Below are positions 1,610-46,200 of a stretch of DNA of 64,000 nucleotides, piece after piece. Source of the stretch: Patiria pectinifera (lineage: Eukaryota; Echinodermata; Asteroidea; Valvatida; Asterinidae); assembly GCA_029964075.1 (NCBI GenBank), contig CM057133.1, forward strand, positions 16,330,699 to 16,394,698, in the 5' to 3' direction. The position numbers and the translations under genes are program-made. The notes under the pieces are model-generated. The model was given only the letters and a program-made list of their open reading frames with translations, was not told where the DNA came from and searched no databases. Position 1 is the stretch's first letter, and every line of letters starts with the position of its first letter.

Positions 1610-7348
<5,739 letters not shown>

Positions 7349-7460
7349 TTTTTAGCAACTACGGCAACCAGAAACAGCGCCCTCTCTTTCTGTTACTATA
7401 GGCCTTTCCTTTGTTTGTAAACATTGACCGGAAACCGACGCATGCGCATTTGCTGGTTGG
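7349..7460 (-). promoter_or_regulatory. Candidate DPCD promoter with NRF1-like site
   Basis: Sequence just upstream of the DPCD start holds CGCATGCGCA at 7439-7448, a match to the palindromic NRF1 site often found in CpG-type promoters of metazoan housekeeping genes. A GGCAAC half-site lies at about 7363-7368, but no full RFX X-box was seen. No TATA box is obvious. Confidence 0.45.
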
Positions 7461-8207
7461 CAAACGTCTGCTTTTTTTAGGAAGGCACTGTTCGAGAACA
7501 ACCAAAATGACATCGTCATACATCATGAATATTGGATTTGATCTTGAATATTCATTTATAAGATGGATCCGCCCATACAGTTTCGCCGCGAATTTTAACG
7601 ACTAGGCTATGTGTTGTACCTGTAATCCGGAAGATCATCATGCTGAAAATAATACTGAGTCTGCTGTCAAATTGACGGTATCCTGGGAGTGGTTTTACTA
7701 GACTAAGGACGATCTGTTACTGACTGTGTATCAAGTATTATTTGCTTTCAGTGTATTTTTCAACCTACACGGTTGCTGTAATTTTAAAGATGACAAAACT
7801 ATGACAAATTTTGTTCTGTTTGTAAGGTTAAGTACATGTAAAACGTTTCTCAAGTTTTATGGTATTTATTTAGGCCCTATTATTATTATGAATTTTTTTT
7901 TATTTAGGGGGGGGGTGTTTTTAAAATTAACTTTCAAACAGAATAATTATTGTGTTCTTGTGAAGATATGCATAAAATACGAGTCCGCCTTTAAATGTAC
8001 CAGCCCACTCACTTCAATTCAATTCTGTGACATTTATTTCGAGCATCTTAAATGAACAAGCTGCAAAATTGTTGCAAAAATAAATGCACCAGGGTTAGCT
8101 GTAAAAAAAAAATTAAACGGGAACAACTTTTGAACCAGGTACATGTATTGTAAAAAAATTTAAAAATTAAACTTAAAGAATTTTTGTATAAACGACAATG
8201 ACGATAG
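7461..8207. other. Intergenic stretch, no gene seen
   Basis: AT-rich sequence between the DPCD promoter and the minisatellite. A modest plus-strand open frame at 7726-8055 has low-complexity composition and no recognisable motif. Confidence 0.45.
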
Positions 8208-8753
8208 CCGCCACCAAAATGACACGTCGCCCACCCAAATGAAGTGTCGTCAACCAAAATGACGTGTTGTCAACCAAAATGACATGTCTTCCACCAAAAT
8301 GTGTTGCCCACCAAAATGTTGTCGCCCACCAAAATGACGTATCTTCCACCAAAATGACATTCAGCCCACCAAAATGACGTGTCGCCCACCAAAATGACGT
8401 GTCACCCACCAAAATGAAGTGTTGATCGCCCACCAAAATGACGTGTCGCCCACCAAAATGACATGTAGCCCACCAAATTAAATGACGTGTCGTCCACCAA
8501 AATGACGGGTCGCCAACCAAAATGACATGATGTAATTCCACAAAAATGACGTACATACCTGTCGTCAACCAAGATGACGTGTTCCACATGTACCCCCTAA
8601 AAATGCGGTGTCGCCAACCAAAATGACATATATCACCAACCAAAATGACGTTTCACCCACCGAGACGATGTGTTCCACAAAATTGATATCGCCAACCAAA
8701 ATGACATTTCGCCAACCAAAATGACGTGTCGTCCACCGACAAAATAACATGTC
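8208..8753. repeat. Minisatellite, about 20-bp unit CCACCAAAATGACGTGTCGC
   Basis: More than twenty imperfect tandem copies of a roughly 20-bp unit with the core CACCAAAATGACGTG, varying by CCAACC/CCACC and by short insertions. The open frame seen on the minus strand is a by-product of the repeat. One inverted copy of the core (GTCATTTTGGTGG) lies outside the array at 9141-9153, just before the YqaJ gene. Confidence 0.9.
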
Positions 8754-9199
8754 TATATATAGAAATGTCACAGACTCATTTCTTCATGCATGGTGTAAAT
8801 AAATCCACCAACTAAAATAGTCTCGTCAACATGGAGGAATGGTCTCAAACGCAAAACCCAGTGCCAATATTATAGGTTGGATTTTATTAACTTCTTTATT
8901 AGATAATTTTGTAACATTAGGCAATATACAATACAGGCAGACAGGCCAATTCCCTTTAACACATGGGCCTAAATTCATTACTTCTACTTCATTCGGACTC
9001 GTTCAGTCACGGAGAAAGGGTGTACATGTACATGTACAATGTACATGTACAATATCTGTACAGCAAATTTTACGTTATAAATATTCACACATGACGACAT
9101 GTAAATTATCATATTTGAATATGCACAATATGACGATGTCATTTTGGTGGTTCTCCATAAGTGCTTACCCTTTTTTTAGCGCACTTTCTAAATAGTAAA

Positions 9200-11957
9200 A
9201 TGGACTCGGACGAGCACTCGTACGCAAGAAGACGGCCGATACTATCCGTTATTAATCAAATATATGAAGAGCATTTGTATTTTCCGAAGGCAAGTCGTTC
9301 GGAGTGTACATCATCATATGTCAACCAACTTGATCAGTTATCGAGAGAAAGGTACAATGACAAATTAACAGTTCAATTTCCAAACGGAACTTTACAGATA
9401 CCAGATCCGTTCGGTGGAGGATTGCAGTACAGTAACAACCCAACCTTGTGGCCTGAAAGCTTCGAGTATGGCGACATGTATAATTATTTGATTAATTCAC
9501 CTGGCCCATACACTAAAGACTCAATGAAATCATTCAAGTCATTGGACTCCTACAGCTACTTTGTGAATGGATTTGTCCAGGCCATACTGTATTCTTCAGT
9601 AAGTGCTGATAGCCCTGTGTGTGTACTTCGAAGCAGGGTCACTCATTCACAGAGCTTGACCAAACCCCCTGTGAGTACCTGGATAATGATCAACAAATCC
9701 ACAGGATCAGTAGTTGCTGCTCACTGCATGTGCATGGCAGGGTAAGAGAAGAGCTTTACTTCAATTAGTTTTGTGACGAGGAAAAGTGTTGCAACCTGAC
9801 GCCACTTCAGCGGTTGTGTACAAAGTCTATGGACAGTCGAGAGAACTTTTGAAGTATTTCCTAACAGTAACAAATTGGAAGTGTTTCTCAGTCCCAGAGT
9901 CATGTCCAACATGTCCAATCATCATTATGATGAGATGATATAATTTTGAAGAAAAAAAGCAGCGTCAGGTTGCAACGTTCATTCCGAAAAGGACAACATG
10001 CTTTTCAGAAGCAGCATATAAAATATATTTTATGACTAGGGGCCTACTTTATGTTTTGTAAAAATTCATTCCAAGGTTTACTCTTTAAACTTTAGCCAAG
10101 TTGAAGGATTTTAAGTGCAAATATTTTTTCAGGGTGAATGGTACTTAGTCACATGTACCTCCAAGTACCAACTTTACAATAGTAACAGTAGCCAACTACT
10201 GAATGCTAGTAGTAGTCGTTGGCACAGCAAAATAATTTATTCCTACATAGCTCATTACATCAGGAAAAAATCAATGCGCTTTATGAAATTAATCGCTTAC
10301 GTCATTAGAAGTGCATCAAAATCACTTGGAATATTTATACTAAAATCTGACAAAAATATTATGTTTTAAGACCCGTGAACTTGGCTATGTTATTGACGCT
10401 AGCTTAACAGGTCTAGGTTTAGTGCCGACTCACAAGGTGATTGTGTATCTACGGGCCTGGTTCCTATGAGGGAACAAAATCCACTTTTAATTATTTGACT
10501 AACCAATGAAACTTGTCGGCGACAGTAGGAACATTCATGTATGGGGTGCTGATTTTTTAGGGTAATTTGGGGGTACTGTGAACACGTAAGGTGTGCTGAA
10601 TCACATAGCACCAACCATAAACAGCATAAGAACATTTGAATTTCTACCCCAAGGAACTTCAACAATTACAAAAGAAATGTGTCATCAGAAATCTGCTTCA
10701 AGTTAAAAAGGGCATATTTAAATAAGAAAACACCTTGACTGCAATTTGATCGAAACTAAACAGGGGCCCTACACATTTGTGTTCTTGGATTGGGGTGATA
10801 AGGAGATTGTCTTCCATTAACATGATTTTGTGTTACATATATTTTATTTCCAGGCTTGGAGAGGCATGCAGCCATATTGCAGCAGTAATGTTCAAGTTGG
10901 AGGCAGCGAACCGCCTAGGTTACACTTCACAGGCATGCACTGAAAAGGCCTGTAGTTGGAACAAAGACTGCATGAATGGGAGGGACTTAGACCCATGTAC
11001 CCTTAAAGATCTTAGCTTCACAAAGCCTAAACATCAGTCAAGTCAAGGCCGGCAAGAAAATAGGTCAGTACGCCCACTCAACCCTCCATCAACAGCCACT
11101 TTAGGAGATCTTGATTTAGATGCATTGAAAAGGGTAAGCCCAGAGGCATGCATTTTTTCACTCCTGCCTAAGCAAGATGAAGACACTGACACAGCATCAG
11201 AAAATGAAAATAATGTAAAACTAGAGTTGCAGACAGAACTACCAACACCCTATTGTCACCTTAAAGCAACTGAAGTTCCGGACCGTCAGCAAATCTCTGA
11301 AGAGCAAGCAGAACTCATTGCATCAAGCACATCTGGACAGAGAAAATCAAACTTGTGGCACCTCTATCGTTATGGTAGAATTACTGCATCAGTACTGGGG
11401 TCTGTGGTCAAATTCATGAATGGATCGTCAAAGAGGGATGTCTCTTCACTCTGCTCCAAAATGCTTGGACTTAACTCGTTCTTTCCAACCAGGGCCATGA
11501 AATGGGGGATTGATCATGAGTCAGTGGCCTTGGCTTCTCTGAAACAGTGTTTAGAGTTAGAGGGCCATCAAAATGTTACACTGTGGAATGTTGGGCTCTA
11601 CATAGACCCAGATTCACCATTTCTTGGAGCATCTCCTGATGCCATGGTCAGTTGCACATGTTGTGGGGTGCAGTGTGTGGAGGTCAAATGTCCACACAAA
11701 AAAAAAATGCACACAACCTAGATCCACAAAGTTTTGCTGGAGCCAAAGCCATTGACTGTTTGAATGTGACAGGACATGAACAAAATTGTACAATCTCTCT
11801 GAAGGAAAAACATGACTACTTTTACCAAGTGTTGTGTCAAATTGGTGTTCTAAACAAATTGAAAAATGTATCATCTGGGTTGTTTGTTGTTTGGACATCC
11901 AAAGGAATGTTTGTGCAGAAGATTCATCATAATGCAGACCAGTGGAAAGCAATTTAG
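9200..11957 (+). pseudogene. SWIM zinc finger plus YqaJ-like nuclease gene of a DNA transposon, damaged
   Basis: Exon 1 is 9200-9741 and exon 2 starts at 10854 (AG acceptor), joining in frame. The join falls inside a SWIM zinc finger: CMC at residues 176-178 from exon 1, then GLGEACSH from exon 2 (pattern CxCx(n)CxH). Exon 2 then carries a YqaJ/lambda-exonuclease-type domain: GRITASVLG, AMKWGIDHE, FLGASPDA with its acidic residue, and the ExK-type EVKCP. At the run of ten A at 11698-11707 the frame breaks, and the rest of the domain (AGAKAIDCLN ... YFYQVLCQIGVLN) continues in another frame to a TAG at 11955-11957. Coding-like sequence continues past that TAG for about 15 codons. SWIM-YqaJ proteins are common passengers of animal DNA transposons. 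The gene faces the THAP transposase gene at 14573-17520. Confidence 0.85.
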
Positions 11958-13141
11958 GAATACAGTGAATTGTTTTTAAACAATATCTCCAGCCTTCAAT
12001 TGTAAAGATTGCACAAAAGCCAGAGTTGTAGTTTTGGATAGACTTGACTCAAGTCGGAATTGCACTAATTCGGTGTCTCAAATTACCAAACACACTTAGT
12101 TTACATCTTTCCAGAAGCATGACAAGTTATACTAAACGCCCGTTTCACTTAAGTACATGTATAACAATTAAAACAGTGCTTGCACATATTGTACGTCTAC
12201 ATGTGTGGATGTGCATGCATCAAGCACCATGTACGTGTACATGTATATAATTTTTTTTTTTAAGTTAGCAATTCCGACTTGATCAACTGCTATCAGCACC
12301 CCCACCCTGGCGAAATGAAACAGAACTGAGCAAAAGTACATTGAAGTAAAGGTGAAATGAGGCAAAAACAAAAGTTACAAACAATACAGAGTGGGGATTT
12401 GCTTCCTCCAATCTTCAGATTTATTTATGTATAATCTTTTTATTTATGTATAATCTAGACATTTGTTAAATATACTGTATAAAATAAACTATGTAATTAA
12501 GATTTTTTTATGGAAAAACAATTGGCATCTTTCATTTTGACGTTTGTGAGGAAAGTTTGCTCATTGGCTGTCTGTCATGAACTGACACAACAACAAATCA
12601 CTAAAAGGCAATTTTACTACATGTATGCACACTGTAATCTAAAATTCTGGCAACTGTTTGTTCACAAACCAATTTGGTTTTAAGTGTACATGTTTTAAAC
12701 CAACCAATTACATATTTATTCCCATAGGCTAAAAAAAATGTCATGTTTACGGTACCTGGAAATTTTGGGGCCAAATTGCCATCCTAAAACTGTTTGTCAT
12801 TTTGCAAAAAAATACAGTACACATATATTGTTAATGAGTCTCAAACATTGCAAAAGAACATTCAAACTGGAATGAAAGAAAAAAAAAAATCAGCATAAAA
12901 TCATTTCCCTACCTATCTACCTGAATTTGTTTTCCCCCAGACTGTTACCGTAAACACACAAATTATTTTGTTGGCCTAAATATTAATATATTGCAGAAGA
13001 ATTAGAATATCACATATTTTATCATATACATGTATTTCAAATTCAAATGTAATTTAAATAATATTTTTGTGAGTTGTATGGTCAGTTTGAAGGCAAAATA
13101 TTTAAAAAACTATTGATGTATTTAAGTTATTTATTTGTGCT
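11958..13141. other. AT-rich interior between the two transposon genes, no gene seen
   Basis: Contains a possible remnant of the YqaJ C-terminus up to about 12005, ACATGT runs near 12180-12246, and long A/T-rich sequence. No intact coding region recognised. Confidence 0.45.
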
Positions 13142-13527
13142 AGGCCAAAAAATGAAAGTCTCCGGTTTCTGGTATGCGCACGTCACCGTAGCCATGCAAA
13201 CCAGCAAAATGAAAAAAAAAAAACTTTCAATGCAAGATATGATGTCTCAAAACTGCCACACTCACTGGTTTGATTGGAATCTGCTGCTGCACAATTTTAA
13301 CGTGTTTTAAAACATGGGAGTTGTGATCAAGTATACAAGTAAGCTTTATGTGTCCTCTCTAGATTCCCATATATTTTGCACTAAATTTAGTCGGGCACCA
13401 TTTGCAATCATCAGCCAACATTTGAAAAAAAAAGTAAAACAAAAACAAAAAACAAGCTGTGTTGCCGCACGACTTTTGGGACAAGCTCCACACCAGAAAC
13501 CGCAGACTTTTTTTTTTTGCCTTTAGG
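13142..13527. mobile_element. PIF/Harbinger-like MITE, copy 2
   Basis: Begins AGGCCAAAAAATGAAAGTC and ends with the degraded inverse (ACCAGAAACCGCAGAC then a T run). Its interior matches copy 1 in inverted orientation, including the TTGATTGGAATCTGCTGC segment. It lies inside the larger transposon, between the two genes. Confidence 0.75.
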
Positions 13528-13669
13528 TCATGTCAAACTATAGGCCTACCTCTATACATTTATACTGTACATGTACTTCACCATATTTTAATTTGTACAA
13601 AAAGCAATGGAATAAAAAAAGTTAAGTTGAAATTATTTATTCTTGTAAAATAAATGGATTTGGACATTG

Positions 13670-13785
13670 TATAGATTGTGTGACCTGCAAATTCCTCTCA
13701 TGATAGTTTTTCACCTTCGTGAATGCAAGAATGGCAAGGGTTGATCTCGCATTGAAAAGATTGAACCCCTATGCATTGCCTATAA
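13670..13785 (-). pseudogene. Decayed fragment of a THAP-DDE transposase
   Basis: The segment GTGAATGCAAGAATGGCAAG and its surroundings align with 14731-14845 of the intact transposase exon (GTGAATGCAGGAATGGCCAG), same strand, with many substitutions and small indels. It covers part of the catalytic core around the second aspartate. No open frame remains. Confidence 0.7.
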
Positions 13786-13837
13786 AATGAAGGGAATTTG
13801 ACCGATAACCACTCTAAAAACTACAGTATGACCATTT

Positions 13838-14165
13838 AACCCCACATCAACAGCCACTTGACTCGAGATCTAGATGTAGATGCATTTGAAACGGTGAACC
13901 CCAATGCATGCATTTTTTCACTCATCCCCAATCTAGATGAAAATACTATACTATAACCGGAATCAGGAAATGAAAATTAAAATAGAGCGGCAGATGAAAC
14001 TACCAAAACCTTTTTTGTCACTTTAATTAAGGAAACTTGGGATGTTTTGGTTGGGGGTGCCCTTTGGCTATGCCACTGCATTGCTCTGCAGTCCACACAC
14101 TGAAGAGCAAGACTTTTTTTGTTGGCCTTAATACCTTTTAATGGTCACATTACTGCATTATTGAC
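13838..14165 (+). pseudogene. Decayed fragment of the SWIM-YqaJ gene
   Basis: The segment starting CACATCAACAGCCACTTGAC aligns with 11080-11395 of the nuclease gene (CCATCAACAGCCACTTTAGG), sharing GATGCATTTGAAACGGTGA-like, GCATGCATTTTTTCACTC and ATTACTGCAT landmarks, with stops and indels throughout. It lies to the right of a transposase fragment, the reverse of the order in a single element. Confidence 0.7.
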
Positions 14166-14572
14166 ATGGTAAAGATTGGTTCATCGTACTTATGTTCCCT
14201 TACGGGCTCCGTGCACAAATACTCCCAACAGTCAGAGAAAGAGAGTTGGGGGAGACCTAGACTGGTTCCCAGTTCATCCACTGCATTTTTAGCATGATCA
14301 GAAGTCAGTGGGGTGCGGATTAGTCTGGCAGTGGCAGACCATTGTTAGAAACATGAACATATTTGCGCATCGACCACGCCTGACTGTCACATGAAGACAC
14401 TGTGACTAAAAACTTTGGTACATTCAGGAATTCATGCACATGGTTCTCAAAAGTGGTAACAAAGAAGCCTCTCTTGTTTGCGCAAGGAGCCCGTTTAGGG
14501 TATAAAATGAGATGGACAGTAGTGTCCACAGAACAAATTGGATGTTTAGTTCCTTTAATTGAGGTAGCCACA
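14166..14572. other. Stretch between decayed nuclease fragment and transposase stop
   Basis: Probable 3' UTR of the minus-strand transposase gene. An 83-codon minus-strand open frame (14571-14320) exists here in a different frame. It shows no family signature and may be transposon-derived or chance. Confidence 0.35.
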
Positions 14573-17520
14573 CTACTTGACTAGAGTTGGAAGAAGATTG
14601 GTCAATGCAGCACACACTGCAATTATGTCATCTATAGTTCTAACAAACGTTATGGGTACAACATGCTGCAAAATGTGAAATTCCTTAATACGCCCTATTG
14701 CTCTTTCTACATGGATGCGGACATTTGATAGACTGCGTGAACCTGCAACTTCCTGTCCAGATAGTTGTTTCTTCCCTTTAGTGAATGCAGGAATGGCCAG
14801 AGTGGCACCATGTACAGCAAGTTCCTCACCAATAGTGAACCCCCTGTCAGCTAAGATGAGGTCACCAGGCAACAGTTTCTCATAAAGCCCACTCTTCTGG
14901 GTCAATGTTTTATCGGAAACTCTACCTCCAAAACATCTGGACAAAAACATAACTGCACCAGTAGGTGAAATGCCTATTAAAACTTTGATAGTATTGTGAT
15001 GTTTGTAGTGACTATATGTGTGTGCTCTAAGTTTGAGATCTGAAGGACGTTGCATAAATATTTCAAAGCAGTCAATGATGACTGTTGTTTTGCGATACTT
15101 CTTTGACTTCTTAAAAGCTTTGGGAAGAGTGCGTCTAAGAGTGTTTCTATCTGGCCAATGTATCAATGGCTTCATCTTGCCAGCCATGTGCTTAATCCAT
15201 AAATTAAATATCTTGGAAGCGCTGGATCGTGATATTTGAAAGCGGTCCGCTATGTCATCAAAAAGTAAATCCAGCCTAAGCTTCATAAGAACTAAAAATA
15301 ACTGATCCTTTAAATTAAGACATCTGCAAAACGAAGAAGACACACCCTGAACAAGCTGATGAAATAACCACAGAAAAACTAAATAAGAAGGAAGACCAGT
15401 ATAGAATTTACATTTTTTGTCAGATTTAATTCTATCATTGGACCACTTTAGTTTGTCCACTTTACTGTGTAGGGAGTGAATATCAGATTTTAGATTTGCT
15501 ATTTCATCACGGTACATTTTGTGTGGGTCACATTCCTGGGGATCCATGGTCTGACTTGAAGCTTGTCGGGTAGTTGTTTCGTGCACACAATTTTCCTTCC
15601 TCCTCTTTGTGGATGGTGGCAGCAAAGGCGAGCTGCTGGAAAAAAAATTTAAAAAACAAAAAGATTTTGGGAAAAGGCAATTAGCATTAGGCTTTGCATT
15701 AGGCCAAAGAAATGCTTCTGATTAATACATGGCATTTGAAAATTACATGAGTTAGGTAGGTATACATGTAGGGAAAGCCGTGATGTGCTGGGTTTTTTTT
15801 CCCCATTCAGGGTAGGTAGGGTAACCAGATGCGGAACTATTATGTTTTGGCCTAAGTAGAGTAAACTTATTCACATTAAACAATGTTGTATGTATTTAAT
15901 CAAAGTAACCAATTTTTATTTTTATGCATTATAAAAAAAATTGAGGTGTATAAACAATTTAAATTAAAGGCGGTTGCTTCAAAAAGGCATGTGGGCAGGG
16001 ATGATAACCTGGGTTTTTTTTTTATTGGGCCTGAAGTTAAACAAAAATGAACTTACAAAAAGTTTAAAATTCAAAATATATTGGTCCTCAAAAAAATTCC
16101 ATGACTATTAATTTACTGTTTAGGGCTGGAATTTGAGAAAAGAACTAGGTCAAATAATAAAAAAAAAACACGTTTAGCGTTCCCGCCCACTTGCTCTTTG
16201 GAGGCCGCCTCCTATTTCATTTTTTTTAGCAACCAAAAAATGATAAATTTTAAACAGACATCATTTTGGCCTAGCCCATAAAAAGCTGGTATGTCATTTC
16301 CTGAGTCCAATGGCGGTAATAAAAAAACAAAAAACTGGCAGCCATTTTGCAACATAGCCTAGTCAGGTGGCCATTTTGGAGAATTAAATCAATCAAAGGG
16401 CCTCCCGCTTCCTTTTTTGCAAAAAGGCAAGCACTAAACATGTTTTTTTTTATTTGACCATATATAAGACTTCATTTCTTATCTTTTGTTTTCATGCCGC
16501 GAGAACCCTGATACTTCTCTCACATCTCATTAAGTGAAGTGATCTTTTCAAAAAGGAGACTGATAGTGTATGTAAATCAAATGTCATAAGAAAATGCAAA
16601 CGTACTTAGTCACTGGGTCTGGTTCCAGCTGTGGCATGGATGGTGAAGTGGTGGTTTGCTTCCTCTTTCGATCTGAGCGCTTCTGCCATCTCTCGTGACG
16701 TTTAAGTTGCTCCTGCCCTTTCCTGAGTTGGTCAGCTGTAGTTCCGCTAAATACAGTTGGAACGAAGTCCACATGATTGTCATCTCTGGAGTAATTTCCT
16801 GCAAAATCCCAAATCAGAAAAGATAAAGAATAATTTAAATAAAATCAAGGTTATGATGAAATTGCAATATGAGTTCAGCTACATTTTTTCCCCTATGTCT
16901 TTGCATAATACTATCCATTTATCAATAATAATAATAAATACCCACAATATTTTATTGCATGCATGATGATGCAGAGTCCTGGAGTCTATCCTACTCCAGT
17001 GCGGGCCATGTCAAGGCTAGCACTTGACTTGTCACGCTGGTTAGCATGGTCATGATGGTTTGCCTCGTCAATTGCCTAAGAATAGACCCTTTTTTATCAT
17101 AGGCCTGGAGGCCTAGGCTAGGCCTAGGTCCCCTGGCCTAGCCTAGCCTAATCATTCATGATTCTTATGTTTTTAATTTATTCCTCCCATGGTTTGTTGA
17201 AATAAAAACACAAATAATCTTAACCGGTTGAGGCTTTCATGATTTATAAAAACCTCAAACAATGCCCATAGATCATGTAGGCCTAGTGATAGACCTTTAC
17301 CTGTTTACTGACCAGAAACAAAGTGTCGACTGCAGATCCTATCATGTAGTGATGGTTGCCACTGCTCATCAAAGACATCTGTCCAGTCGCTGTGTTGCCG
17401 TACGGCACAAATCCAAGCCTGCCGTTGCACTGGAAAGGCCTCAAAATCGGGAAAACGGAAACATTTTATTCCCGAGTCTTTCATGTGCCGCTTGTTGCAA
17501 CAACAACAAGTAACAACCAT
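14573..17520 (-). CDS. THAP domain plus DDE_Tnp_4 transposase, three exons, intact
   Basis: Exons 17520-17313, 16798-16606 and 15635-14573 (stop TAG), lengths 208, 193 and 1063 nt, in frame at both GT-AG joins; 487 aa. Residues 1-86 form a THAP DNA-binding finger: C5/C8 near the start, W36, ICSRHF giving C63 and H66, and the closing FVPTVF at 81-86 encoded by exon 2. The domain is complete only after splicing. A basic linker and a short coiled-coil (about 177-203) follow, then a helix-turn-helix-like DIADRFQISRSSASKIF (about 261-277). The DDE_Tnp_4 nuclease fold has candidate catalytic D322 (IIDCFEI), D397 (LADRGF) and E444 (HVERAIGRIK). No stop or frameshift interrupts it, unlike the facing nuclease gene. 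The family moves DNA by cut-and-paste. A domesticated host gene cannot be excluded, but the setting favours a transposon. Confidence 0.9.
16960..17160. repeat. AGGCCT-rich palindromic low-complexity run
   Basis: Within intron 1 of the transposase gene, 17100-17150 is a run of overlapping TAGGCCTA/CTAGGC motifs. Simple palindromic repeat; no function seen. Confidence 0.5.
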
Positions 17521-17717
17521 TGTGACGCCGCCGGCCGCTTTCACCTTTCGTATTTTCAAGAGACTTACGAACGTCACGTCAGCGGACTGTTCAGCTGCTG
17601 TGAAACTCGAATTGCGCGGGAAACGAGATTTGTCAACATCGGTAGTTTGCCAACCAAAATGGCGGGTTTGTTTTGTCACGTGATGCGTGACGTATCAAAA
17701 GAAAGGCTTATTAATGT

Positions 17718-27898: not shown

Positions 27899-28213
27899 TT
27901 AACCCTAACCCCCTAGGCCCTTGTTGCTTACAACCATCCTCAATCCTCCAAAATCCTCCAAAATTTTTCAACTCCGCCTAAATTTGTCAGACAGTCCTGC
28001 CTCAAAATGCATTCATCCTCAATCCTCCAAAATCCTCATGTGCTTCATTCACCATTCATCCTCAATCCTCCAAAATCCTCATGTGCTTCAATCACCATTC
28101 ATCCTCAATCCTCCAGAATCCTCATTTGATTCAATCACCATTCATCCTCAATCCTCTAGAATCCTCCAAAACCGCCAGGAGGATTTTGGAGGAGTGAGGT
28201 GGGTTAGGGTTAA
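27899..28213. mobile_element. TTAA-flanked piggyBac-like MITE, copy A
   Basis: Body 27903-28209 begins CCCTAACC and ends GGTTAGGG, with TTAA on both sides. Target TTAA and CCCT ends are the hallmark of piggyBac-type elements. The interior is about three 44-bp tandem units built on ATCCTCAATCCTCCAAAATC. It ends about 120 bp upstream of the G gamma coding exon. Nearly the same sequence is at 43571-43894. Confidence 0.75.
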
Positions 28214-29399: not shown

Positions 29400-29633
29400 G
29401 GCCAAAAAAAAAAGTCTCCGGTTTCTGGTATGCGCGCGCGTCACCGTAGCCATGCGCGTCGGCAAAATGAAAAAGTTGTTTTTTCAATGAAAGATGACGT
29501 CTCAAAACTGCCAAACTCACTGGTATGACTGGAATCCTGCTGCTGCACAATTTTAATTTTAGCCGCGTCGCCGCACCACTTTTTGGGCAAGTTCCATACC
29601 AGAAACCAGAGACTTTTTTTTTTTTTGGCCTAA
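29400..29633. mobile_element. PIF/Harbinger-like MITE, copy 3 (internally shortened)
   Basis: Left end GGCCAAAAAAAAAAGTCTCC, right end ACCAGAAACCAGAGAC then a T run and GGCC. It shares the CCGTAGCCATGCGCG and GCTGCTGCACAATTTTAA blocks with copies 1 and 2 but lacks their middle. Confidence 0.75.
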
Positions 29634-40200: not shown

Positions 40201-43200
40201 ATCCTCCAAAATCATCCATTATTTCTTGAATTTGTACAGTGGAGGGGTGACCATTCCTCAATCCTTCAAAATCCTCCAACAATCACTGTTAATTAATGGG
40301 TTCAGGCAGTGCCAATAACACAATAATATGAACTCAATACAATGCATCCTCCAAAATCAACCGACTTTTTCTTGCCGTTCATCCTCCATCCCCCAAAATC
40401 CTCCAAAAGTGCCTGGAGGATTTTGGAGGATTAGGGTTTTATACAGTCATCCTCCAAGAGTGATTATGAATAGCAAGCAAAAATTATTTGAAGTCATTCT
40501 TAATAATATAATAATGATACTTGCATGGCAAATTACAAAGTTCCAAGGTACAGTCCTTCTGATTTGAGGCGTGCGATCACACCCCCACACCATCGCACAG
40601 TCTGGGTGCTGACAATTACCCTCGCCTCCGGCTCGGGTAATTATCACTATCAGCACCCAGACTCCAAGCGGTCTTAAACAGAGTGATAAAAACCTCCGGA
40701 GCACACATTTATTCCCTTAGTATTTATAACAGTTTGAGAATAAGGATAAATTTGTGAAAAGTTTCACTTTAACTGAAATTTGTTTTCTTTGCCTTCACAG
40801 GAAGCGGCGAGGTGCAATGGTGCTTCTCACAAGTTAAAGGGACAGTAGAAGATGACGTTACTGATGGTAAGTGCAAACTCACTTTGCAAAATCATGTACA
40901 TGTACATATGCAGATACATGGACATGTACATGTATATTGTACGCTTGTTTGTTGCTGTGGCAGGGTCCGTGGCGTTCTGTACACCCGAGGGGGCAAATGG
41001 CACCCAGCGCAAAGCCCATCACAGCAGGCAACAATTGTTTTATTATACCACGGTAATAGACTACTAACATCTGAAACTGTGGGTCTAGGCTGTTGCGGTA
41101 CACAATTGGCAAACTTTTTGCACAGAATTTTCCGTATTTTTCTTCGTGCTGATGCTGTCCTGTTCAAAAATCAAATTTCTGATCTCGTCTTTGGAACAAG
41201 AGAGAAACCTCTTCTTTGGAAGCCACCTGTTGTCATCTGCCAACATTATTACGGTGAAATTACGGCGAAATTTGCACAGTTAAAAAAAGCAGACGAACAG
41301 TGATGAACGATGTAAACAAAAATGGCAGTCATGGCAGAAATATTGCTTCACCGCCCCTGTGGTACATCTCTTAAAAACGTATATCGATTTACGTAGTACC
41401 AGCGTAGCTACAACCTCGTACCTGAGGTCACACAAATATAATACAACGCGATGGAAACGATCAAATTTTCAATAGCGGGAAAGAAAAAGCTAATGTACCC
41501 GTAGGGATCATCACTCATGTACCACACGCGTGCAGCGTACATCACTGTACAATGTGTGTTTGTCGCATGACACATGATCAATGATGGACCAATAAAAATT
41601 CACAATCTATTACCTGTGGTATAACAAGTGCGCATGTTCAACTTTGGATGTAGTTCTGAACTTTTCATGAGTTTACTTCAAATATATTGGTTCAGCGCGA
41701 ATCTGGAATGCCAGTCTCAAACAAGTGTTACTGATCTCTAATATTCTCATTTCCTGCCGAATCCTATCAAAGAAATTCAGAATGTTTACCTTAACTTTCC
41801 TAACTTCATAAAAAATAGATTTTGGCAGATGAGCCATATGTACCAAGTCCATCGAAATCCGCCTAGTATAGCAGTGGTGGATTCGTGGTGGATTTCAACG
41901 GATTTGGTCCTGAGGCATTATGTGAAGCAGAGTCAGTGATGGATTTTGACGGACTTTGTACTCTATTTTTAAAACGCAGTAGGGAGTTAGGGGTATTAAA
42001 CAGTCCTCAAACAACACAGCATACAATTACATGTACATGTAGTTTGAACACCCCACTGCTCGTTCATAAAACAAGACCAGGATGTGCAGGAAGCCTTGTC
42101 GACCTTCAAACACACTGACAAGATATATGTAACATGTATGGTTATGCTTTGCACAATTTCATACCTGTCATTTATTAGCGGAAATTTTCATTGAATCTGT
42201 CAAATACAAATTGTGCCATGAACATGTACTGTGGGTAATTGAATAAGGAAGTAAATGTATTACCCCCCTTTTATTTACAACACTGCAGTTGAATCTGTTG
42301 CGGTATCACAACAGGTACATACAGTACACAAACTTAACAATGCCCATGCCAACTGCTCTTTTAACTTAAAAACCGTCCTATGAAAACATGCATTGTCCGC
42401 CTTGTTATTACTTGGGTCAATATTGGTCAAGACCCCCATTGGTTTGTACACAGTAGGCCAGGAGGTGAGGAAGAAAATTTTGACTGATTGTGACCCCTTA
42501 AATAGCAGGAGGGTTAATCCTAACTCCCTACTGTCTTTAACTCTATCAAAATCCATTCCCACATTTTGGTGGATTTTGGGGGACTTGGTCCTGCAGGCCT
42601 GGTTTGACTATATATGATGGACATGGGCCTGGAGGCCTAAAGCAAAGCATGCATTGGAAGCAATGTGATTGATGGATTTTGGCGGACTTGGTCCAGTACT
42701 TAGTAAAAGACGGTAAGGAGTTACTCAATGAAGGTTTAACCCTAACCATCCTCAATTCTCCAAAATCCTCCAAAATTTCCCAAAATTTTGCAACTCCGCC
42801 TAAATTTTTCAAAATTGTCAGTTACAATCCTGCCTCAAAATGCATTCATCCTCAATCCTCCAAAATCCTCCTCATCCCAAAACTTTGCACTCGTGTTTAA
42901 ATGAAGGATAACCAACGCCAAATCCTTCAAAATCATCAGACCGTCCTGCCTCAAAATGTATTCATCCTCAATCCTCCAAAATTCTCTTGTGCTTCAATCA
43001 CCATTCATCCTCAATCCTCCAAAATCCTCATGTGCTTCAATCACCATTCATCCTCAATCCTCCAGAATCCTCATTTGATTCAATCACCATTCATCCTCAA
43101 TCCTCTAGAATCCTCCAAAACCGCCAGGAGGATTTTGGAGGAGTGAGGTGGGTTAGGGTTAAGGAAAATTTTGGAATGGAATGCTTTCATCGGTAACCTT

Positions 43201-46200
43201 GCTTTGCTTTGAGAAAAAAAGAAGATGCATTTTCACAGCTTTCTCATGAAGTATGATATATACTGTGCTAAAAGTTTGGCAGGTTAGTTTTTTAATAAGC
43301 TCCTGCATAGTACTGTCGTTCCTGCAATCAACAAAACTGGGGGTCTTTTTGCAAATGGTTTCCATTCCCTTTAATTTAAAACTCGGTGTACATGTATAAC
43401 TCATTGATAACTTCCTACAGTGGCACAGGAATGACAGGTTGAACAATGAAGAGGAAGTGTTTACTACATGTACATGTATAAAATAGCATTTCTGTCCCCT
43501 AAAAAATATTCAAGCTTTTTTATGCCTGTGTCCTTGAATTTTTTGGGGTACTACTTTGTGACTCATTTTTTTAACCCTAACCCCCTAGGCCCTTGTTGCT
43601 TACAACCATCCTCAATCCTCCAAAATCCTCCAAAGTTTTTCAACTCCGCCTAAATTTTTCAAAATTGTCAGACAGTCCTGCCTCAAAATGCATTCATCCT
43701 CAGTCCTCCAAAATCCTTTTGTGCTTCATTCACCATTCATCCTCAATCCTCCAAAATCCTCACGTGCTTCAATCACCATTCATCCTCAATCCTCCAGAAT
43801 CCTCATTTGATTCAATCACCATTCATCCTCAATCCTCTAGAATCCTCCAAAACCGCCAGGAGGATTTTGGAGGAGTGAGGTGGGTTAGGGTTAAAGTATG
43901 CATTAGTTAACTTTATGTATTTCACAGCATGTGATGACCTTTATTTAATTACTAGACAGGCATGTAACTTTACCTCGGATCTGCTGATATCCTCATTTTC
44001 TCATGAATGCCAAATTGAAAAACACTAGGGGCCTAAACAAAGTCTTGTGTGGTTTGGATTGGAATGCCCTCGGTTTTTTTTTCTTTCTCGGTTTTCTTCT
44101 AAATTCCCTGTTGCATTGCGTATGGCAATGAAGTGTTGAACAAGGATGAATATTCAGCAAGATTGTTGCACTTAGTTCATAATATAATTATTTCTTGCTA
44201 TTTTTATGTTAATTTCTGTGGTACATTATTTAATGCGTAATTGATCAACGTTATAAAGGCCGCGCAACACAAATTTAATATATTATTATTAGAATATTGT
44301 GATTATTACAATCACATGTACATGTACCGGTATTTAGCAAAAACATTTGCAGAGAAACGATTTTATGATCTTCAATAGTGTCAAATGAAAATCATTTCAG
44401 GCTCACTTTGTGTAATCCATTGTCCAAGCCAATTATTACATGTACATTGTACATATATACCGGTATGCATAAGTACTGTACATGTATGAATGTACAGGTA
44501 GACCTTCTGTTTGCCGATTTTTTGGCCAAGAATATTTTATTTATTTTTTTATCATTTTCTGAGGATAGCATTCTGTGTACCAGCCATTCAAAGCTAATCA
44601 AACAATTAGGCTGAGTTGTGCAGGCGTGAAAACTTCAAAATTTATTACAATTACATGGACGTGTACCCTCTTAAGAATTAACGTCAAAGGAAATTCGTTA
44701 AACCAAGCAGTGATTTGATTTTATTGTTTAATCTCAGTATTGACAGAGCAGTTGGCATTCAGTTTGCAATGTAGTACTGATAAATATATGTGCGGTTCCT
44801 ACAAATGTAGTTTGCATTCTACAGCTGAGCTCTCAGCCGCAGCATTCCCCAAGCTTTCAAAATGAATTACCGTCTGACATATCTCACAATTTCTTAATTC
44901 TATCCCTCTCTCTCTCTCTGCTCTTTTTCCCTGGCTCTCCTCTAGCCGATATCATTTCCACGGTAGAGTTCAACCACGACGGAGAGCTGCTAGCCACCGG
45001 CGACAAAGGCGGTCGCGTTGTCATATTCCAAAGGGAAGAACAGGTATGCTGAGATAGGGTTACCTGAGGGGGATGTGAAGGGACACAAAGACTGACAATC
45101 ACCCCCCCCCCCCCACCCGACCAGTACACATGCCATGGCATGTGTTTCTGTTATTAGTGAGTAGTACATACACGTACATATTTATGTGCATGTGTGTAGG
45201 CCTACATGTACAATGTAAATGTACACTATTTGTTGTACATGTAGTAACGGCCGTGCAAATAGTACAAGGTGGATGCATCCCATGAGGCTTTTCACATGCA
45301 TTTTGTTTGAAATCAAGTTTGCTTCAGATAGTAATATGTAAGCCCAAGTGCATTTCTGGAAACAAGGATATGAATGGCATAGAACAAGTGGTGGGATTTA
45401 AATCCGGATTTGTTTAAATTCGGTTTGAATTTCACTATTTGGTTTAGATTTGGGAAAATGGATCTTCAAAACCAACCTTTGAAAATAAAGTATTCCATTG
45501 TTTGTGACACAGGCTGAAGAGAACAACTGGAGTATTTCCTAATTTGCTCCGTGGTCTCTGATTGTAACTGCATTCACTTGCTAGTGGTCATCTTGGGATA
45601 TGAATAACCTGCCCATTTGACTAATCAGAGAGTTCCTACCCATTTTGGCAGCATTACTGTTCTGAAGTGTTTTTGTAACTTGGCCAAATGGTCATTGAAT
45701 CCTACAAACTAAATGTTCATGTTTACCCAATCATTGGGAGGGCATTGCATGTGATGCCTCACTCCTGACGTTTTGTTGGCATGACTGTGAGCTGAACAGA
45801 ATTTCCGGTGAAATCGGATAACCGTTATTCGGTTTGAAAAAAGTAGGATAACCAGATTTTGAAATCTCTGAGTTCACCCACCACTACACGGAACGCGGTA
45901 CGCATACATTTTTGCCATGTTCTGTTTTTACCCCTCAGCCGAGAGGCTCGAGGGGTATTGTTGTCTTTGGATAGCTGATAATAGTATACACATGTACACT
46001 CAACTTAAAAAGAAAGTCCCCCTTAATACCTTTTTGTCTGACTCAAAAATCTGTACTGATAGTCGTTACTTGAGCGAGAGGTGCTGAGTAGTTTTTGAGT
46101 TCGACAAAAAAGTATTGGAGGGGGGGGACTTTCTTGTTTGGTTGAGTGTATGTACTAGTATATTAGTAACTAGAGTACCGTATGCAGGAAAAAGGTACAT

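Follow-up and report, generated by a model that had tools for sequence, protein, structure and literature searches.

A multi-copy two-gene DNA transposon with a YqaJ-type nuclease in Patiria pectinifera, and a related clade with interlocked genes

About 10 kb of the 64,000-nucleotide stretch of the Patiria pectinifera genome analysed here (hereafter, the window) is taken up by an inserted two-gene DNA transposon of which the genome holds multiple copies. The copy has short inverted ends, a duplicated AT on either side, and two convergent genes, a transposase on the minus strand and a nuclease on the plus strand (Table 1). Taken as a whole, with its THAP/HTH/DDE transposase, its SWIM-like/YqaJ nuclease and the mechanism proposed below, it is probably an element of the ISL2EU group. 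The first-pass annotation of this DNA had assigned a two-gene element to the 8.3 kb from 9200 to 17520 and had left terminal repeats and boundaries open. The transposon is real, but that interval is its coding span alone; the terminal repeats are now located, and the element proper measures 10,310 bp, or about 8.6 kb without a nested element of 1.7 kb.

Table 1. Features of the transposon copy, in window coordinates
Feature	Position	Strand	Basis
Left target duplication, AT	7398..7399	.	Flank survey; empty site of sibling copy C19a
Whole transposon copy	7400..17709	.	Edges common to the C2 copy and genome-wide end matches
Left inverted repeat, AGGCCTTTCCTTTG	7400..7413	+	End comparison of copies
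Subterminal GGTTGGCAAAC, candidate transposase site (putative function)	7455..7465	+	Equal distance from both ends, 3 copies
Younger nested element, with 8-bp duplication TTTTTTTA at 7472-7479 and 9171-9178	7480..9170	.	Missing in C2 and C16
Nuclease exon 1, ending in first half of SWIM-like motif (CMCMAG)	9200..9741	+	Spliced frame
Nuclease exon 2, second half of SWIM-like motif and YqaJ	10854..11957	+	Spliced frame
YqaJ domain (PF09588, E 6.8e-14), motifs GASPDA and VEVKCP	11356..11706	+	Pfam
Older small inverted-repeat element	13146..13519	.	Shared with C2 and C16
Relic of transposase catalytic exon, 78% identical DNA	13651..13741	-	Self-comparison
Relic of nuclease catalytic exon, 75% identical DNA	13824..14026	+	Self-comparison
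Transposase exon 3, HTH_Tnp_4 and DDE_Tnp_4	14573..15635	-	Spliced frame and Pfam
Transposase exon 2	16606..16798	-	Spliced frame
Transposase exon 1, THAP domain	17313..17520	-	Spliced frame and Pfam
Inverted partner of subterminal GGTTGGCAAAC	17645..17655	-	3 copies checked
Right inverted repeat, read inward, AAGCCTTTCTTTTG	17696..17709	-	End comparison of copies
Right target duplication, AT	17710..17711	.	Flank survey of copies

The edges were defined by comparison with other copies in the genome (614 Mb in 1020 contigs). A copy on C2, 97% identical by BLAST, aligns from window position 7397 to 17711, the alignment ending on both sides, and lacks positions 7475-9173. The outer left end has 26 genomic matches, of which 18 span 70 or more of 84 bases, one spans 40 bases and seven span 31-36 bases; the outer right end has 19 matches representing 17 loci, two loci being split. 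When the coordinates of these matches were compared by hand, a correctly oriented left end lay 5.5-17.8 kb from the right end at all 17 right-end loci. The annotation had held that its proposal would fall if other copies lacked a common boundary around both genes; the C2 copy has both edges, and every right end is paired. At one locus (G000:C7:16708045-16708286), two left-end matches of this family lie on the same strand 172 bases apart, which suggests a tandem duplication of the end.

The target duplication is the 2-bp AT. It is present on both flanks in 13 of the 17 copies for which both ends were read; in three others the left end is damaged, and the remaining copy reads TA/AT. Around the duplicated AT, the 13 clean copies read TATA (8), TATT (3), AATA (2) and AATT (0). 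Its size is settled by an empty site for the copy C19a, whose joined flanks, with a single AT, match at least 42 places across the junction. The repeat that forms this empty site starts some 20 bases to the left of the junction, and the two examples retrieved, which are paralogous, match at 80 and 79 of 81 bases. Duplications of 3 bp (TAT) or 4 bp (TATA) were considered and rejected on this empty site and on the flanks of the clean copies, two of which have A before the left AT with T still at the right end, and three of which have T after the right AT. A search for an empty site of the window copy gave no listed match spanning the junction, the right flank being a high-copy repeat and the left flank matching itself alone, and the same search for copy C1 found none. 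In the three copies checked, exact inverted GGTTGGCAAAC sits 54-56 bases inside either end. The inverted repeats and target duplications that the annotation had proposed to look for in aligned copies are thus present.

The transposase gene comprises three GT/AG-bordered exons, which join into an intact frame of 487 aa, and the spliced protein matches THAP (1.3e-6), HTH_Tnp_4 (2.3e-16) and DDE_Tnp_4 (8.6e-49) in Pfam. A spliced THAP-DDE gene facing the nuclease had been read correctly from the letters alone. A PDB sequence search with the transposase returned a ribosomal protein alone, at E 0.59. The nuclease gene reads rightward from an ATG at 9200. The annotation's YqaJ domain and intron-split motif both stand, the intron dividing a C-x-C...C-x-H motif as CMCMAG|LGEACSH; its SWIM assignment is not borne out by the Pfam model (PF04434), which has no match in the window family and reaches 12.7 bits against a cut-off of 19.6 (E 0.095) in the relative L018. 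The SWIM label for this putative finger comes from the bare motif, and we therefore write "SWIM-like". Matches of the second ORF in Pfam are to YqaJ and Viral_alk_exo only, the YqaJ region also matching the viral alkaline exonuclease family; a PDB sequence search with the intact sibling nuclease gave no match up to E 1.

That sibling, on C16, encodes an uninterrupted nuclease of 573 aa and is 99.5% identical in aligned bases. In the window, the spliced frame meets a first stop at residue 469, near 11699, and another in-frame stop at the end of exon 2. From its reading frames, then, the window copy is predicted to be unable to make a full nuclease, and its transposase frame is open. The nuclease frame is broken in the C2 copy as well, and a need for the nuclease is therefore not evident from individual copies. 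Zinc-finger-like motifs recur on related nucleases: of 30 loci covered by a pattern scan of the YqaJ frame, which is blind to motifs on separate exons, 11 have a SWIM-like motif and 8 a PHD-type one. Pfam places PHD in L013 and PHD-1st_NSD in L017 above cut-off, and PHD in L019 below it.

The window holds several further repeats and frames. The nested element has inverted ends of about 41 bp and internal 20-bp tandem repeats, and its left end has 40 genomic matches, of which 38 cover 115 or more of 146 bases. Its tandem unit CCACCAAAATGACGTGTCGC (8211-8740) resembles the right subterminal sequence of the transposon, GCCAACCAAAATGGCGGG (17649-17671), at 74-77%; this may reflect either chance or a common binding site. 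The older small inverted-repeat element is about 82-84% identical to 5617-6000 and 29400-29624. Elsewhere, a 43-bp unit, CATTCATCCTCAATCCTCCAAAATCCTCATGTGCTTCAATCAC, recurs register-shifted in three arrays (28010-28166, 42960-43115 and 43691-43847) with 91-95% matches, and an open frame at 40773-41303 presumably corresponds to an exon of a PP2A regulatory B subunit. At the related locus L013, open frames at 1-1308 and 8637-9629 flank the transposon and resemble what we take to be a type B DNA polymerase; this transposon looks as if it had been inserted into a large DNA element.

Two layouts of the gene pair occur among these transposons: the convergent one of the window, and an interlocked one found outside the window in one clade of two families. 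Among the 69 pairs formed by the 85 YqaJ loci listed, 58 are convergent, 11 divergent and none on the same strand. In the 11 divergent loci, the catalytic domains stand back to back with 346-1700 bases between them, and in all 11 the N-terminal exons of the nuclease are found past the transposase exon, on the nuclease strand; the THAP exon was placed in two of them, L018 and L093. In the interlocked arrangement, each catalytic exon lies antisense inside the last intron of its partner. Because the catalytic exons sit in partner introns on the opposite strand, only unspliced transcripts would overlap.

The arrangement is clearest at L018. Its nuclease has four GT/AG exons (628-905, 2230-2460, 2919-3060 and 4466-5254) that give a stop-free frame of 478 aa, with an intron that divides the SWIM-like motif where it is also divided in the window family. 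The transposase runs on the opposite strand from a THAP exon at 7154 (THAP 1.1e-9) down to a catalytic exon beginning at 4399; the end of the THAP exon was placed by visual inspection, and several splicing solutions are possible for this gene. The transposase catalytic exon thus lies in the last nuclease intron, and the last nuclease exon in the last transposase intron. The second interlocked family, represented by L093, has the same exon order; its nuclease is open, but in 218 splice combinations, so that its borders are unsure. In both families, the element ends start GGACCG and the flanks read A-AT and AT-T in the four copies examined (4/4), and an interlocked copy on C11 has an empty site that matches at 180 of 180 bases. 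The six interlocked rows sampled form one group in both trees, with support of 100/99 for DDE and 80/89 for YqaJ. A further member of the clade, at G000:C6:14871042-14873798, has the transposase and N-terminal nuclease exons, with YqaJ absent among the listed matches, and is apparently decayed.

How the interlocked layout arose may be reflected in the window itself. Between its two genes lie the diverged pieces of both that the annotation had pointed out: one matches transposase DNA at 14708-14803 (E 2e-14) and the other nuclease DNA at 11066-11264 (E 2e-33), each in the orientation of its parent. From left to right, the transposase piece precedes the nuclease piece, giving the order Y-d-y-D. 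The C2 and C16 copies align across this stretch with small gaps only, and the relics are therefore older than the spread of these copies. A tandem duplication of the catalytic block would give the order Y-d-y-D if the inner copies decayed, and the interlocked layout if the outer copies decayed instead. We put forward, as a hypothesis with a little less than an even chance of being right, that a convergent element became interlocked through such a duplication and loss of the outer copies, and that the relics in the window, which could stem from a tandem duplication, record the same kind of event with the outer copies surviving. Self-comparison of three interlocked elements (L018, L092 and L093) gave no relics of outer copies, and a search for protein-level relics in six other convergent loci also gave none. 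It is a serious though somewhat doubtful alternative that the relics derive from a nested and rearranged sister element. The block is small and degenerate, and other elements are nested nearby; an internally deleted sister, however, predicts nuclease followed by transposase, and what is seen is the reverse order, in parent orientation.

As to mechanism, DDE enzymes cut and join DNA, and THAP and HTH domains bind it. By analogy with these families, the THAP and HTH domains would bind the element ends, with the symmetric subterminal GGTTGGCAAAC sites as possible contact points, and the DDE domain would cut at the AT boundaries and insert the element into a site that is mostly T|AT|A, with a 2-nt stagger. 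The least certain step concerns the YqaJ protein, which would be a lambda-exonuclease-type PD-(D/E)xK nuclease; the functions of second ORFs in such transposons are reported as still unknown in the available text of PMC4482050. Our tentative preference, held with some doubt, is that the nuclease resects the broken donor site, so that repair is biased towards copying the element back. A role in trimming or processing element ends or flanks is rather unlikely. It is improbable that the nuclease acts outside transposition as a module for defence or competition against rival elements or foreign DNA: YqaJ-type nucleases do occur in viruses, and the region matches the viral alkaline exonuclease family, but coupling to one transposase lineage over many families better fits a part in the element's own cycle.

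Sequence comparisons offer a moderate case for selection on the nuclease. Exon 2 of the C2 and C16 copies gives dN/dS of 0.105 on 11 changes (8 synonymous and 3 nonsynonymous), the pair L055-L058 gives 0.10 with dS saturated, and the young pair L019-L052 gives 0.32. The case is held at moderate because two other young pairs show no constraint: L014-L016 (dN/dS 0.83 on 4 changes) and L054-L057 (7 changes, all nonsynonymous).

The guess that the element is an ISL2EU-type two-gene transposon agrees with the published description in gene content and target duplication, and departs from it in two traits. In the portions of PMC4482050 available, ISL2EU elements encode a THAP/HTH/DDE transposase and a YqaJ protein (a gene content likewise given in the available text of PMC9179366), duplicate AT within A|AT|T, have inverted repeats of 6-259 bp that usually start GG, and average about 4.8 kb. 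The window family shares the THAP, HTH and DDE domains, a second ORF with YqaJ (broken here and intact in C16), the 2-bp AT and short inverted ends. Its flanks, in contrast, are mostly T|AT|A, whereas A|AT|T is found in all four interlocked copies examined; its inverted repeats start AG on the left and AA on the right, whereas the interlocked families have GG; at 8.6 kb it exceeds the reported mean; and its nuclease carries a SWIM-like motif, which those portions of PMC4482050 do not mention for ISL2EU. Within the open-access literature as far as it was accessible, we met no ISL2EU element described with a SWIM-like or PHD finger or with interlocked genes, and the family may already be catalogued; the accessible part of PMC12730594 yielded no mention of YqaJ.

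Other known systems fit less well, by the same partial sources. KolobokE, likewise a DNA transposon, codes for a lambda-exonuclease-like PD-(D/E)xK nuclease (PMC9587614, available text), but the window transposase is DDE_Tnp_4 with HTH_Tnp_4 and not of Kolobok type. PIF/Harbinger elements have two ORFs and a related DDE transposase (PMC4482050, PMC9179366), but as described there their second ORF is Myb/SANT and their duplication is the 3-bp TWA. Spy has a related DDE transposase, but a single ORF and no target duplication (PMC4482050). On gene content and duplication, compared with the published description, we assign the element to the ISL2EU group of PHIS transposons, within which its target flanks and repeat start mark it as a sub-lineage; it is called a variant because those two published traits are absent from the window family. 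A new PHIS group seems quite improbable. The lack of AATT in 13 clean copies and the AG/AA starts would suit it, as would a related family with its own nuclease whose left ends read AT|AGAGCC or AT|TGAGCC, but PMC4482050, in the text available, defines the groups by composition of the duplication, the A|AT|T flanks being a conserved trait beside it, and sibling families of the same genome with the same gene pair show both A|AT|T and GG.

The association of the two genes extends across the genome, which has at least 85 YqaJ loci and at least 106 loci of relatives of the window transposase. Among those listed, 69 of the 85 YqaJ loci have a related transposase no more than 10 kb away, where about 0.3 would be expected under random placement; 16 of the 85 and 37 of the 106 transposase loci are unpaired within that distance. 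One of the unpaired YqaJ loci is copy C1, a member of the window family with both ends and the nuclease and no transposase match within 10 kb. The two genes have also diverged together. Their distances are correlated over 25 pairs (r 0.88, 0 of 5000 permutations), a value inflated by near-copies, and with one pair from each of 15 families (r 0.57, 0 of 20000 permutations). The trees and distance pairs leave out L062 and L064, which have broken domains; L012, L013 and L015, of the same family as L014 and L016, were unpaired in the distance test. The other 14 families are 26-49% (YqaJ) and 32-53% (DDE) identical to the window family. That the two are unrelated mobile or host genes which adjoin by chance would suit the unpaired loci and C1, but it can be dismissed for practical purposes, given this pairing and co-divergence and the copies on other chromosomes that enclose both genes within the same two edges.

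Finally, we note what this genome offers for the study of such elements. Many families have kept transposase and nuclease together while the two diverged together, and intact and broken nucleases exist side by side, which makes the genome natural material for asking what use an exonuclease is to a cut-and-paste transposon. In some sibling families the nuclease bears PHD-type fingers, which raises the question of a connection with chromatin. The interlocked clade, whose two antisense genes each sit within introns of the other, is architecturally unusual, and an intermediate that accounts for the origin of this layout may survive in the window.
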